From Reyranella humidisoli (lineage in GTDB: Bacteria > Pseudomonadota > Alphaproteobacteria > Reyranellales > Reyranellaceae), in NCBI RefSeq assembly GCF_019039055.1, contig NZ_JAHOPB010000001.1, forward strand, positions 1,674,001 to 1,738,000: 64,000 nt of DNA. The letters run 5' to 3'. The notes beneath the pieces are model-generated. The model made no database searches, had not been told where the DNA came from, and was given only the letters and a program-made list of their open reading frames with translations. This document shows positions 51,699-57,062 of this stretch, in pieces. Every line of letters starts with the position of its first letter. Positions within the stretch are counted from its first letter, which is position 1. A program made the position numbers and the translations under genes.

Positions 51699-51812
51699 AC
51701 CTCATCCTGAGGAGCGCCCTACAGGGGCGCATCTCGAAGGATGGGCAACGGACGCGGTGCGCGTTCCCATGCTTCGAGACGCGGTCCCGGGGACCGCTCC
51801 TCAGCATGAGGT
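51699..51812. repeat. Repeat family B, copy 2
   Basis: Outer arms ACCTCATCCTGAGGAGC and GCTCCTCAGCATGAGGT, with inner GCGCCCTACAGGGGCGC hairpin, CTCGAAGGATGGGCA / CCCATGCTTCGAG arms and GGTCCCGGGGACC. A fragment of the left arm (ACCTCATCCCGAGAGG) is also present 30 bp before, at 51669. It lies upstream of the aldo/keto reductase stop. Confidence 0.88.
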
Positions 51813-51847: not shown

Positions 51848-52813
51848 TCAGGCCTTCACCGGCCCCGGCAGGTCGAGCCCGACGCCGGTCAGGTGCCCGA
51901 AGGTCCGATGCAGCCGCTCGATTACCGGGGCGGGCAAAGGCGGCCGCAGGATCGACTCGATGTTGGCCTTCACATGCGCCCGATTGCCGGTGCCGAACAG
52001 GATCACGTCGGCGCCCTTCTCGTGGCGCGCGTAGCGGTAGGCCGCATCGGTGATGCTCTCCGCGCCGCCCTCGGCGACGAGGAAGGCGAGCGGGTCGCCA
52101 TCCGCGCTCCCCTGGGACAGCACCGACGCCTCGAGCCGCCCGTCCTCGACCAGCTTCGCGAACACGGCGCGGCGGTAGGCGTCGTTGCTGAAGATGTTGC
52201 GCACGACGAACATCAGCAGCGTGCCGATGCCGCGCCGTACGGTCACCGGAAACACCCTGGTGCGCGCGCCCTGGTTCACCAGGCTGTAGGCCAGCATGAT
52301 GACCTCCCACGGCGCCTCCTCGACGGCGCGCGCGAGCATCGCCTGCTCGGGATCGCGCGGACCCGTCTCGGTGAGGCCGACATGGCGCACCTTGCCCTGC
52401 TCCTTGAGCCGCAGCAGCGCCGGCGCCAGCACGTCGCGATGATGCTCGTAGGCCGCCGGCCCGACCGCGTGGAAATGGAAGATGTCGACATGGTCGAGCC
52501 GGAGCCGCTTCAGCGATGCCTCGACCTTCTGCGTCACCGTCTCTGCCGTGTCCTCGGTCTTGAACAGCGCCTTGGTCGAGATCACCAGCCTGTCGCGGTC
52601 ATAGGCCTTCACCGCCGCGCCCACGATCTCCTCGGTCCCATAGACCTCGGCCGTGTCAAGGAAGTTGACCCCCAGATCGATCGCCGCCCGCGCGACTCCC
52701 ACGCACTCGTCGAAACTCGCCCCGCGCCCCAGCCCGAGCCGGCTGTTGCCGCCGCAGCCGAGCCCGGCGACAGAGACGGTGAGGCCGGTGGTTCCGAGGG
52801 GGCGGGAATCCAT
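51848..52813 (-). CDS. Aldo/keto reductase family oxidoreductase
   Basis: A 321-residue TIM-barrel NADPH-dependent reductase. The catalytic tetrad is visible: Asp and Tyr in NFLDTAEVYGTEE, Lys in VISTKAL and His in IFHFHAVG. The variant resembles L-fucose/D-threo-aldose dehydrogenase-like AKRs. It reduces aldehydes/ketones or oxidises sugars. It is the last high-GC gene before the low-GC island at its 5' side. Confidence 0.9.
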   Translation of the reverse strand: MDSRPLGTTGLTVSVAGLGCGGNSRLGLGRGASFDECVGVARAAIDLGVNFLDTAEVYGTEEIVGAAVKAYDRDRLVISTKALFKTEDTAETVTQKVEASLKRLRLDHVDIFHFHAVGPAAYEHHRDVLAPALLRLKEQGKVRHVGLTETGPRDPEQAMLARAVEEAPWEVIMLAYSLVNQGARTRVFPVTVRRGIGTLLMFVVRNIFSNDAYRRAVFAKLVEDGRLEASVLSQGSADGDPLAFLVAEGGAESITDAAYRYARHEKGADVILFGTGNRAHVKANIESILRPPLPAPVIERLHRTFGHLTGVGLDLPGPVKA

Positions 52814-53096
52814 CAGGTGTTCCTGTTAGGCTTCGGTGGCAGACAAATAATGTAAACGACTACCTCTACGATTCTCAAATTCCCACAATGGCTGTGCGGA
52901 GCTTGTCTTCGGATAGCGCGCGATAGGAACGCTGAAACGCCGCGACTAATTACTCGATTGAGCAAATGGCGACTTGGGGAATATCCGCGGAATCCGGTTG
53001 GAACAAGCCACGACACAGCTTTTGATTGATACATTGACGGCTTTAGAAAGCCGAAAGCAGTGATGTCCAGCTGCGGAATACGAGTCATCCAACTAA

Positions 53097-53969
53097 ATGA
53101 GACCTGACATGAAGCTAATGCAATGTGTTGTTCCTGTTTTGAAAGATGACGAGAGAGGCGTCCCAAGAGCCGTCGGTTCTTGCGTACTTCTAGAGATTGC
53201 TGAGCAGTATTTCCTGCTATCAGCCGCTCATGTGCTTGATGAAACTGCTTCTAGTACGCTCTATCTGCCGGGTAGAAACAAGCTCATCGCAATTACCGGT
53301 CATAAGATCTGTAGTGTGGCTCCCAACGGTGATCGTGATCTTGACTGGATTGACGTTGGGTATGTTTGCTTGACTAAACAAGAAGCAGAAGAGGTCTCGA
53401 CGCAGTTCTTCTTCTTGCCTGTTGCATTTGTTGACACCGATGACATGGCGAGTCCGGGTTCTCACTATATTTTTTCCGGCTACCCAGCCACCGCTGTAAC
53501 AAGGCGATACCAAGCGAACGTATTCGATGGTCAGGTGCATACTTTTGTTGGCCGAAATTCTCCGTACCAAACGTATTGGAAGGCCGGGACCAATTTTCTC
53601 GCAAACGTCGTTGTTGGTTTTCAAGCTAAGAAGGCCAAAGATCAACTTGGCAAAATCGTAAGACCGAAAGACCGACAAGGAATGAGCGGCGGCGGCATAT
53701 GGGTAAGCAGCGGGTCAAATTTGATGCGAAACATTCCAACTCTTCGGCTTTGCGGAATAGGAATCGAGCATCAATCAAAGAATCAATGTTTGGTCGGCAC
53801 GCGCCTATTCGTTCTTTTGGAAATGATAAGAAGGGACTTCCCTCATCTCTCAAATGCAATTCCTACTAGTGCTGTGCTTGCGATAATCCCAACTTGGGCG
53901 CAGGAGGGAGAAATCCACGCGGCTAATCAATTTTCACGCACAAGGTTACCTCACCGCACGCGCATGTAA
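53097..53969 (+). CDS. Trypsin-like serine protease, cytoplasmic
   Basis: 290 residues with the chymotrypsin-fold triad in order: His45 in LLSAAHVLDE, Asp86 in DWIDVGYV and Ser197 in RQGMSGGGIW. There is no signal peptide or membrane segment, so it should act inside the cell, unlike most trypsins. A conserved FSGYPAT strand and LCGIGIEHQ after the serine fit the fold. The last 30 residues are basic. An alternative ATG is at 53109. Composition is AT-rich, unlike its neighbours. The stop at 53969 abuts the stop of the convergent ATPase-nuclease. Cytoplasmic trypsin-like proteases are frequent effectors of bacterial conflict systems; a defence role here is inferred. Confidence 0.78.
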   Translation: MRPDMKLMQCVVPVLKDDERGVPRAVGSCVLLEIAEQYFLLSAAHVLDETASSTLYLPGRNKLIAITGHKICSVAPNGDRDLDWIDVGYVCLTKQEAEEVSTQFFFLPVAFVDTDDMASPGSHYIFSGYPATAVTRRYQANVFDGQVHTFVGRNSPYQTYWKAGTNFLANVVVGFQAKKAKDQLGKIVRPKDRQGMSGGGIWVSSGSNLMRNIPTLRLCGIGIEHQSKNQCLVGTRLFVLLEMIRRDFPHLSNAIPTSAVLAIIPTWAQEGEIHAANQFSRTRLPHRTRM

Positions 53970-55988
53970 TCATTCGCCGCTCTCAAGGCTCGCGGTTGGC
54001 AAATTGACTCGCGCCATTTTCGCGTCGTTACCTTGCTCTTCGCCAGCGGGAACAATTCTGCTTAGATCCAATTCTCGCTGCCGTGGTTGCTGGGGGCTCA
54101 TGTAAGTCTCCGGGTCTATACCGCGATCTCTTAGAAATGGCGCGTCACGAAGTTTGTCGCGAAGACCAAGCATGCGCTTTTCAGCTCTCTTTATGAAAGT
54201 TGAATAAGTCATGGCGCGAATAGTTACCCGGCCATTCAGCTTCGTCTCGTCTGCTGCTTCTTCTGGATCTATCTTGGAGCCCAGTACGTAACAAGTCGTT
54301 GTCGCAGCGTCCGTTAATAAGCCCCTCGCAATAAGTTCTTTCACATATTGCCATGGCTGCTGCTTTTCCTCGGCGCCAATCAACACACCGGGCTTCTTGA
54401 TCTCTGCAATGACGAGGCGGGACACGCCGTCAACCTCATGTCCAAGGTCATGAGAGTCGCGACTGTAAAAGCCGACGCTACCATCGGGTAGAATCACGAA
54501 GTCAGGCCGTAATTTGCTGCCCCGCTCCTTACTGCCGAAGATCTTGCTGATAACCTCAGTCATGCCGCGGTTGCTTGTAAACTCCAGACTTTCGAACTCC
54601 GGACCGAATACCCAAAGACTGCGATCGAATAGTGGCTGCAGATCGCTAACTTCCTTCATGGTTTCGTCGCGGAGCTTTTGGTCGAGTTCTTCGATCAACT
54701 TAAGCCGCTGCGCTATCTCATCGAGGGCCAACTTGGCTGTACGAACAGTCCAGTCAACGAGCAGTGCGTGCAGTTCATCCAAGTCGCCCGGCTTCATCTC
54801 GTGCAGTTTGGCGATGAGTTCGTACTTGGAGGTTGCCAGCTCCAGATTGGCAAGCACTCCGGCGACTTGCTCGACGGTGTCTTCGTTCATGGACGGACAG
54901 GCATCGACGACGCGATCGACAAAATCGTTCCAGCGATCCCGGCTTATCGGCGGCAGTTTGGCTACTGTATGCGCCAGTGTCTCTCGAACCGCTTCCTTCG
55001 TTTCCCTGCGTCGATCTGCATTGATCTCGCTGAGATACTCCCGAATCTTAGAATGCAGTATCGGTTGGGTCGCACGCCAAGCGTTGCCCTCCGGAGAAAA
55101 CCCTGACCAATCTGGCTTTACCTCGCCGGCCAAAAAATCGGCCCGTACAATGAATATAAACCGCTTGGCCTCGCTGCTTCGCCCATCGACAAGACGTTCC
55201 TGATCAAAGCCAGTCCAGCCGGGGGTCCCAACAATGCGGTTGTTCACGCGCCAAGCAATGCCGTGTTGGCGTGTCGTCTTGTCCGCCTTTTGCGTATCGA
55301 TGACAGCGAGGTTTGCTATTCCGAAGCCTGGTACCTCTACGTCAATCACGCGTCGTTGTGCGATAGGTATGTCATCGAAAGTGACTTTGGTGCCGTTGAT
55401 CGTGACGACAAAGTTGGGATCCGCCAGAAAGCGCGTTCCGACTACTTCACGCGCTTCTTCGGGCGTCATCGCGAGTGGCCGGGGATCTAGCGCCGCGATT
55501 TCCGTTCCATGCCCATCGATATCGGCTTCGGCCTTCAGGCGCTTAATAGTGAATGGTTGGCCTTCGCCGCGGCGGACTTCGAATGCGACTGCCTTCCCGT
55601 CGCGCCATGTTCGGACGCGATATGCCTCGCAGAAGCGGAATGCAGCGTGTCGGCCTTTTCCGTTACGTCCATAGGCCGTCCGTGGACGCAATTCCGAAAG
55701 CTCTGATGGTGGCTGTGACACCTCTCCTTCGTCGCGCAGGCGATTATAATCCAGCGTCTTCCAGCGTGTCTGGAATTGTGCTTCCGTCATGCCTTTCCCA
55801 TTGTCTGAAATGGAAAATGGGGCATCGGTGGCTCGTTCTGGCCAAACAATATCGACCTGCGTTGCCCATGCATCCCAAGAGTTAGCAACCAGCTCGACGA
55901 GTGCGACCGCAGGATCGGCAATAATCGCCCCCGCGTGCCGATCCATAAATCTGTTGTCGAAGAGTAGCCCTGGTTGTTTGGCCATCAT
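53970..55988 (-). CDS. GHKL (Hsp90/MORC-type) ATPase fused to Shedu-like PD-(D/E)XK nuclease
   Basis: 672 residues. The N-terminal GHKL ATPase (about 1-200) has the N-box Glu32-x3-Asn36-x2-Asp39 in VELVANSWDA, the G1 motif SDNGKGM (Asp62) and the G2 loop YGRNGKGRHAAF. A transducer-like region (about 200-320) and helical part follow. The C-terminal half carries LWVFGPEFES, then a PD-(D/E)XK core: Asp496 in RPDFVIL, Glu529 and Lys531 in VIAEIKKPG, and a QxxxY helix (Gln544, Tyr548). This arrangement resembles DUF4263/Shedu defence nucleases. ATG 55988 is chosen; ATG 55985 and 56003 are alternatives. Low GC suggests transfer. Confidence 0.8.
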   Translation of the reverse strand: MMAKQPGLLFDNRFMDRHAGAIIADPAVALVELVANSWDAWATQVDIVWPERATDAPFSISDNGKGMTEAQFQTRWKTLDYNRLRDEGEVSQPPSELSELRPRTAYGRNGKGRHAAFRFCEAYRVRTWRDGKAVAFEVRRGEGQPFTIKRLKAEADIDGHGTEIAALDPRPLAMTPEEAREVVGTRFLADPNFVVTINGTKVTFDDIPIAQRRVIDVEVPGFGIANLAVIDTQKADKTTRQHGIAWRVNNRIVGTPGWTGFDQERLVDGRSSEAKRFIFIVRADFLAGEVKPDWSGFSPEGNAWRATQPILHSKIREYLSEINADRRRETKEAVRETLAHTVAKLPPISRDRWNDFVDRVVDACPSMNEDTVEQVAGVLANLELATSKYELIAKLHEMKPGDLDELHALLVDWTVRTAKLALDEIAQRLKLIEELDQKLRDETMKEVSDLQPLFDRSLWVFGPEFESLEFTSNRGMTEVISKIFGSKERGSKLRPDFVILPDGSVGFYSRDSHDLGHEVDGVSRLVIAEIKKPGVLIGAEEKQQPWQYVKELIARGLLTDAATTTCYVLGSKIDPEEAADETKLNGRVTIRAMTYSTFIKRAEKRMLGLRDKLRDAPFLRDRGIDPETYMSPQQPRQRELDLSRIVPAGEEQGNDAKMARVNLPTASLESGE

Positions 55989-56193
55989 TCCCCCGGCACA
56001 CATCCTAGCGAGCCGGCATCATCGGGTCTATGCGAGCGGAACTGCGCTGACCGTACGGGCTACTGTGCTCCATCGGCGTAGCGGCTTGTTGGCGTACTCA
56101 ACCAAGCCGACCACTTTTGACAGCACTGCAAGCGGAGATCTGTATCGACAACTGGCGCGGGTCAGACAAAAGCACCAAGGTCCAGATGCTTCG

Positions 56194-56910
56194 CTATTGT
56201 GGCGTGCTTCGGCCGTAGTACTCCGCCAACCCCTCCAACGCCGCCTCCCCATCTCCTTTGAACGTCGGTCCGTGCATCAGCGCGATCGTCGTCGGCTTCA
56301 GTGCCGCCAGCCGGCGTAGCGTCGGTGCGGCCATCGGCGTCGGCGGCATGAAGGGCAGGCGCTCGGCGACCGCGATAGCGGGGGCGACGATGTCGCTTTC
56401 GGTGGTGGGATCGGCGGGGCCGGTCTGGGTGAAGAGGTCGCTGCTGAACAGCGTGCCGGTCGTCTCCTCGTAGATCAGGCCGGCGTCCCAGTTGTGCGGG
56501 ACGTGCGGCGTGTCGAGCCAGCGCACCCGCTTGCCGCCGAGGTCGAGCACCTCGTTGTCCTGGAGCGCGCGCGGCGGGCGATCGGCCATGTCGCTCAGCC
56601 AGATGTTGCAGCCGGTCAGGCCGTGCGCCGGCTGGGCGTTGGGCGCGGCGGCGAGCCACTGGTTGAGCGCGCCGCTTTCGTCGCCCTCGGCGTGCGAGCA
56701 GGTCGTCCAGCGCAGTTTGCTGAGCGGGATCACGGTCTTCACCGCCTCGACGATCAGCGGGAAGAGGCTGCGCTGGCCGTAGTGGAACAGCAGCGGCTCG
56801 TCGGCGTCGATCAGGAACTGGTTGAAGGTAAAGCCGGTCGGGCCGACGTTGGGCACGAAGGTCGAGAGCCGGTAGATGCTGGGCGCGATCTCGGCGACGG
56901 TGGTTCTCAT
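56194..56910 (-). CDS. Metallo-beta-lactamase-fold protein with diiron (FprA/ODP-like) ligand set
   Basis: 238 residues. The metal motif is H73-x-E75-x-D77-E (SHAEGDESG) rather than the HxHxDH of hydrolases. Further ligands are in TPHVPHNWDAG, FSSDLF (Asp158) and LMHGPTF (His213). His-x-Glu-x-Asp plus His/Asp/His is the iron set of flavodiiron and ODP oxygen-binding proteins; no flavodoxin domain is attached. It may therefore bind O2 or NO, or be a sensor. AAGGAGA precedes ATG 56910. It is the first high-GC gene after the island. Confidence 0.85.
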   Translation of the reverse strand: MRTTVAEIAPSIYRLSTFVPNVGPTGFTFNQFLIDADEPLLFHYGQRSLFPLIVEAVKTVIPLSKLRWTTCSHAEGDESGALNQWLAAAPNAQPAHGLTGCNIWLSDMADRPPRALQDNEVLDLGGKRVRWLDTPHVPHNWDAGLIYEETTGTLFSSDLFTQTGPADPTTESDIVAPAIAVAERLPFMPPTPMAAPTLRRLAALKPTTIALMHGPTFKGDGEAALEGLAEYYGRSTPQ

Positions 56911-56924
56911 CGCGGTCTCCTTGG

Positions 56925-57062
56925 GGGCCGAGCGAAGCTCGGCCCGTGGAGCGGCAGGACATTGCCTTGGCAATGTCCGAGAGCGCTGAAGGAAGAGGGA
57001 TCACGGAGGCTCTGACCCCTCCGTCGCGTATGACGCGACACCTCCCCCTTTGAAGGGGGAGG
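56925..57062 (+). repeat. Repeat family A, copy 7 (half copy plus module)
   Basis: Starts with GGGCCGAGC..GCTCGGCCC and GGACATTGCC..GGCAATGTCC hairpins, then GAAGGAAGAGGGATCAC and the right half of family A (TGACCCCTCCGTCGCG, TGACGCGACA, CCTCCCCCTT..AAGGGGGAGG). Compare copy 4 at 39750. It lies between the MBL-fold gene and the Asp-box gene. Confidence 0.85.

Follow-up and report, generated by a model that had tools for sequence, protein, structure and literature searches.

Locus and genomic setting

The gene studied here occupies an intact open reading frame on the reverse strand of the window, by which we mean the whole stretch of 64,000 nucleotides from Reyranella humidisoli that was analysed (Table 1). 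Counted from its first ATG the frame encodes 677 amino acids. The likely start, however, is M7 (ATG at 55985-55983), which is favoured by a GGGGGA just 5' of this codon and by relatives beginning in the M7 column of the alignment, and which would give a product of 671 residues. Residues are numbered here from the 677-aa frame; the initial annotation began at M6 and its numbers are 5 lower, and all residues that it named are present at the shifted positions (E37/N41/D44, D67xGxG71, D501, E534-x-K536 and Q549-x3-Y553).

Table 1. Coordinates in the window of the GHKL-nuclease gene, its predicted domains and key residues, and its surroundings.
Feature	Position	Strand	Basis
GHKL ATPase - Shedu-type nuclease gene (predicted product)	53970..56003	-	ORF call, alignment of relatives
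GHKL (Bergerat) ATPase domain, residues ~16-175	55479..55958	-	Pfam HATPase_c_3, invariance in relatives, Foldseek
Putative S5-like transducer, residues ~180-300	55104..55466	-	Model secondary structure, Foldseek alignment lengths, invariants
Long helical middle region (predicted), residues ~305-445	54669..55091	-	AlphaFold2 model m964276e6ddd3
Predicted PD-(D/E)XK nuclease domain, Shedu SduA_C type, residues ~448-622	54138..54662	-	hhalign with shuffle controls, weak Foldseek list
E451, first acid of the E-D-ExK signature	54651..54653	-	Invariant in relatives
D501 of RPDF	54501..54503	-	Invariant in 13- and 16-sequence sets
E534-x-K536, end of predicted core strand 529-535	54396..54404	-	Relatives and model
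Q549-x3-Y553, helix after the catalytic strand	54345..54359	-	Relatives and model
Foreign insert between the two conserved flanking genes listed below	52814..56214	.	GC content, variable interval in sister genomes
Conserved flank, aldo/keto reductase gene	51848-52813
Conserved flank, ODP-type MBL gene	56194-56973
Trypsin-like serine protease gene, same insert	53097..53969	+	Triad H45, D86 or D83, S197

The GC content is about 48-58% over 52.9 to 56.2 kb as compared to about 62-70% outside. Genomes of the same genus keep the aldo/keto reductase and ODP-type MBL genes as flanks while the interval between them varies: in G770, G772 and G760 it shows no evident cargo and measures 640, 605 and 477 bp, respectively, it holds a RiboL-PSP-HEPN gene in G768 and a cassette of Nmad2-like, IrrE/M78 and DUF6378 genes in G280, and in G752 an SNF2-type helicase adjoins the MBL gene. 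None of the sister-genome intervals that were compared with the insert of the window matched it, and no direct repeats were seen by eye at the insert edges. The content between the kept flanks differs among these genomes; the gene is thus cargo of a variable site, on an insert that was gained recently. The site itself (window 52814-56214, L101-L108) is a cargo hotspot in the genus. Close to it lie a dispersed, intergenic repeat of ~75 bases (56925-57000), which recurs at dozens of same-genus places at 80-92% identity and in three further copies in the organism's own genome, and a ~113-base stretch (51699-51812), likely also a dispersed repeat, found on both strands at several same-genus loci.

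The same insert encodes a trypsin-like serine protease with a conserved H/D/S triad and a weak PADLOC match to Lamassu LmuA. These two properties, a common low-GC insert of ~3.4 kb and stop codons that abut those of the nuclease gene could be read as a defence module of two genes, with the product of one serving to activate or release that of the other. We consider this highly improbable: the genes are convergent and not co-transcribed, a trypsin homologue was sought in 14 loci of the nuclease family and found in none, and such homologues occur elsewhere without the nuclease. The last two observations leave the protease unsupported as a partner, and given its absence from the 14 loci we treat it as a separate passenger. 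In Rhizobium (L112) a homologue of the protease is located near S1 peptidase and caspase-family genes; the last ~25 residues of the protein have no clear counterpart among its relatives.

ATPase half, transducer and middle region

The N-terminal domain matches Pfam HATPase_c_3 with an E-value of 2.2e-16, which argues against a chance assignment to the GHKL ATPases. Its motifs comprise the general base E37 with N41 and D44, D67-x-G-x-G71, GRNGKG at 112-117 (in a glycine-rich segment reading Y111-GRNGKGRHAAF) and GHGT at 164-167, and the three Bergerat motifs described as intact in the initial annotation are all confirmed, with the Pfam check positive. In ten relatives of 43-71% identity E37, N41, D44, D67, G69, G71, G112 and G115-K116-G117 are invariant, as are D501, E534, K536, Q549 and Y553 of the nuclease part. 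Over a set of 13 sequences, invariance holds for E37, N41, D44, D67, G69, G71, G112, G115, G117, D501 and Y553, and E534 is nearly invariant.

An AlphaFold2 model built from 13 sequences (mean pLDDT 71.5, pTM 0.48) matched HtpG/TRAP1, MORC2-4 and MutL in Foldseek with a best E-value of 2.7e-12; as the alignments cover just a portion of the chain, TM-scores are low. Alignments to structures combining GHKL and S5 extend over ~350-450 columns and the predicted secondary structure fits S5; we infer that residues ~180-300 may form an S5 domain, a region which contains the invariant R275...A279-K280-R281. Beyond it, helices are predicted at 307-342 and 409-444 (model m964276e6ddd3). The Hsp90/MORC-like clamp proposed at the outset is supported, at the level of the predicted fold, as a GHKL/S5 clamp by the matches to MutL, MORC and TRAP1/HtpG (E to 1e-12), the apparent affinity to MORC being one of fold only, as seen with Foldseek. 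Sequence searches of the PDB with the protein returned mainly MutL/PMS2-type ATPases and no Shedu for the clade of the window protein.

Relatives and distribution

The relatives of 43-71% identity (alignment A1) come from Sphingomonas, an alphaproteobacterial MAG and plasmids of Rhizobium, Agrobacterium, Azospirillum and Tritonibacter. In a maximum-likelihood tree the window protein groups with the Sphingomonas and MAG sequences, inside a clade of 12 that includes it and has full support and a long branch; long branches meet in this tree, which makes the deeper joins unsure. Members come from alphaproteobacteria, from a further family within the phylum (L126) and from two low-GC viral contigs (L120, L121), and the clade carries ~18 extra, conserved residues between D501 and E534 (DGSVGFYSRDxHDxGxEVDGV).

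More distant relatives, with a C-terminus matching SduA_C (alignment A2), form a sister GHKL-SduA_C family (L040-L043, L067, L069-L073, L123). It shares the architecture of the window protein and is homologous to it over the full length at ~22% identity, but it is without the insert between D and ExK. Whole-length profiles of the two groups match with an E-value of 6.6e-35 over residues 20-608, and the A2 profile recovers the window gene in its own genome (2.2e-33, model positions 15-484). One sister protein (L040) scores 27.9 bits against the PF14082 SduA_C cut-off of 27; in the PDB the family finds the Shedu structure 8ti8 at an E-value of 0.1 only. A further GHKL-nuclease group from viral contigs (L075-L088, e.g. 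L076:4989-7001) has ExM (LEFMRP) where ExK is expected, the nuclease site being altered or inactive, and for this reason the L075/L087 group was dropped as evidence of nuclease activity, its identical architecture notwithstanding. Decayed fragments of the family were also observed, one of the N-terminal 92 residues on a Sphingobium plasmid (L045:8001-8276) and one of ~30 nuclease-core residues in G380 (L111:5269-5349).

The gene is rare, being present in one out of 289 genomes of the class and absent from the same-genus genomes sampled. Many tblastn matches in the class sample cover residues ~15-145 only and were not counted as relatives; we take most of these ATPase-only matches to be other GHKL proteins such as MutL. 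Phage records searched with the protein (P0001) gave no match. Integrases lie beside three of the loci (L003, L046, L047), split cas9 and MmeI genes are near another (L037), and in L036 a canonical Shedu gene is located directly 3' of the family gene. On both viral contigs the family gene directly follows an S24/HTH (CI-type) prophage repressor, a usual location of superinfection-immunity genes. SF2 helicases accompany the family gene in L002/L003 and are divergent from the sister-family gene in L040/L041; the helicase of L041 (5007-7535, reverse strand) is of the PADLOC candidate type PDC-S28 and that of L040 (4985-7513, reverse strand), annotated as DEAD/DEAH helicase, has the same position, so that helicase and GHKL-SduA_C gene possibly constitute a two-gene system. 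On an Agrobacterium Ti plasmid a member (L034:11977-13911) is found near nopaline dehydrogenase, and the genes that come next, HepT-like and RusA, are convergent.

Among solved structures MutL is the nearest to the GHKL domain in sequence, and one might therefore think of a housekeeping protein of DNA repair or chromosome handling, of MutL/MORC type, rather than of defence. Such a role is very unlikely for a gene of this rarity that is carried on plasmids, in prophages and in a variable insert.

Identity of the C-terminal nuclease domain

The catalytic residues of a PD-(D/E)XK nuclease, E451, D501, E534-x-K536 and Q549, are conserved in the C-terminal domain. Searches with single profiles miss it: Pfam PF14082 (SduA_C/DUF4263) did not match the protein at E<=10, and PADLOC SduA models left its C-terminus without a match. 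A PF14082 search of the own genome likewise gave no match, which is uninformative alone as control genomes gave none either. By profile-profile comparison with hhalign, in contrast, the C-domain of the window clade matches that of the sister family (probability 96.9, E 1.6e-10) and, as alignment A5, a profile (A6) of 13 Shedu-type C-domains drawn from the phylum sample and from one plasmid (probability 88.7, E 2.6e-6), and a deeper mixed alignment of 16 rows (A8, with sister-family rows and the two rows L075 and L087 included) reaches a probability of 98.0 against canonical Shedu C-domains. The best among 100 column-shuffled A6 profiles scored 22.3 as against 43.3 for the real one with A5 (0/100 as high), and control profiles made from an unrelated protease and from the ATPase half and middle region all stayed below 1% probability. 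In the match D501 falls on the D of Shedu and E534-x-K536 on its ExK; E451, just outside the aligned stretch, was placed by eye, from its position, against an invariant E that stands a little ahead of WQ in the C-domains of Shedu.

With this match and a sister GHKL-nuclease family that passes the Pfam SduA_C cut-off, the C-terminus is a predicted nuclease of the Shedu type, its homology being one of profile-profile comparison. The Shedu-like PD-(D/E)XK domain first read from the sequence thus stands at that level and is not seen by Pfam or PADLOC. The structural check set with the initial annotation is answered in part, at the level of predicted secondary structure. The model of the domain is weak (pLDDT 65.5) and, used on its own in Foldseek, gave no match with an E-value below 0.08; 14 of the 15 top entries are, judged by their names, PD-(D/E)XK enzymes, including Bacillus cereus Shedu 8ti8, a list that is suggestive only and consistent with a PD-(D/E)XK fold.

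Comparison with described systems

The initial annotation regarded the fusion as undescribed or little described, which does not hold: GHKL-S5-nuclease proteins were named paraMORC3 in 2008 by Iyer, Abhiman and Aravind, who also noted standalone cases (PMC2292703), and a GHKL-Shedu protein has been tested in Vibrio cholerae (Adams et al., 2025, PMC12137116). Like paraMORC3, the window protein has GHKL motifs and a C-terminal restriction-fold nuclease with E-D-ExK, its S5 domain being putative, and the agreement, by description, extends to paraMORC3 members that stand alone or accompany SF2 helicases, mainly in proteobacteria and bacteroidetes. The Vibrio protein, VcSduA of the WASA lineage, joins GHKL with DUF4263, confers protection from T1-like phages and vibriophage X29, loses defence upon E27A and K557A exchanges, gives growth curves that agree with direct restriction and not with death of the host, and has been classed as Shedu type I-D (PMC12137116). 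It resembles the window protein in being a single chain with N-terminal GHKL motifs I-IV, a clamp-like middle and a C-terminal DUF4263-type PD-(D/E)xK domain, and in being a single gene borne on a mobile island; its ATPase glutamate and nuclease lysine are 530 residues apart (E27-K557) and those of the window protein 499. The comparison is by description, not alignment, and the DUF4263 of VcSduA is recognised by profile whereas that of the window protein is missed. Of the marks of Shedu type I-D, the window protein has profile-profile homology of the C-domain, the catalytic residues and an enzymatic N-terminal domain (GHKL), but no PF14082 match. Canonical Shedu (SduA, PDB 8ti8) shares with its nuclease core the columns of E, D, ExK and the following Q, but has another N-terminal sensor and no GHKL; the E. 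coli Shedu is reported to be a homotetramer that binds DNA ends (PMC12904381).

BbrUII/HgiDII restriction enzymes are likewise large single-chain nucleases with a GHKL ATPase, and the window gene might encode an ATP-dependent restriction endonuclease of this kind, or a modification-linked nuclease, which recognises a sequence and is restrained by a methylase encoded at another genomic location. The NCBIfam BbrUII/HgiDII model (NF050001, 4.4e-23) and PADLOC REase_II models do match its ATPase half, and paraMORCs have been placed in restriction-modification operons, with SF2 helicases as further partners (PMC2292703). However, NF050001 scores 81.7 bits where the cut-off is 550, and its best stretch is the ATPase only; no methylase is present in the insert or adjacent in the annotated plasmid relatives, and some paraMORC3 members stand alone (PMC2292703). 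We regard a restriction enzyme as unlikely.

Proposed function

ATPase and nuclease signatures kept intact in one chain, the homology to Shedu, a site of mobile cargo, and relatives that are plasmid-borne or adjoin prophage repressors argue, from sequence and context, that the gene most likely encodes an anti-phage nuclease which works as a one-gene system and is of the GHKL-Shedu kind (paraMORC3; Shedu type I-D); it would be licensed by ATP-dependent closure of a clamp. By analogy to MutL, MORC, GyrB and VcSduA, two chains would dimerise, and ATP binding would shut the N-terminal gate and trap DNA in a cavity under the S5 and helical middle regions. Closure may then position or release the two C-terminal nuclease domains such that the trapped DNA is nicked or cut, and ATP hydrolysis would reopen the clamp. 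Self and non-self would probably be told apart by some property of the DNA that comes with infection (free ends, for example, or replication intermediates with branches) and not by methylated sequence, the insert being without a methylase.

It is well-founded to see the protein as a new and distant member of a group that had been described before and tested in Vibrio, and in this respect the finding is largely expected. What is new is a rare and well-supported clade, found in alpha- and other proteobacteria, on plasmids and in prophages, with an extra insert in the nuclease core. A bolder and rather doubtful proposition is that this clade would make up a Shedu subtype of its own, invisible to profiles, where topological capture of DNA driven by ATP, together with the D501-E534 insert, replaces the sensing of DNA ends by canonical Shedu, and which prophages use for superinfection immunity.

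The GHKL-Shedu design extends past what PF14082 and PADLOC detect, and surveys with these profiles therefore undercount it. Cutting gated by a clamp is a testable explanation of why a nuclease that is sequence-independent leaves the DNA of its host intact, and the clade includes members on prophages for which a natural role is plausible.
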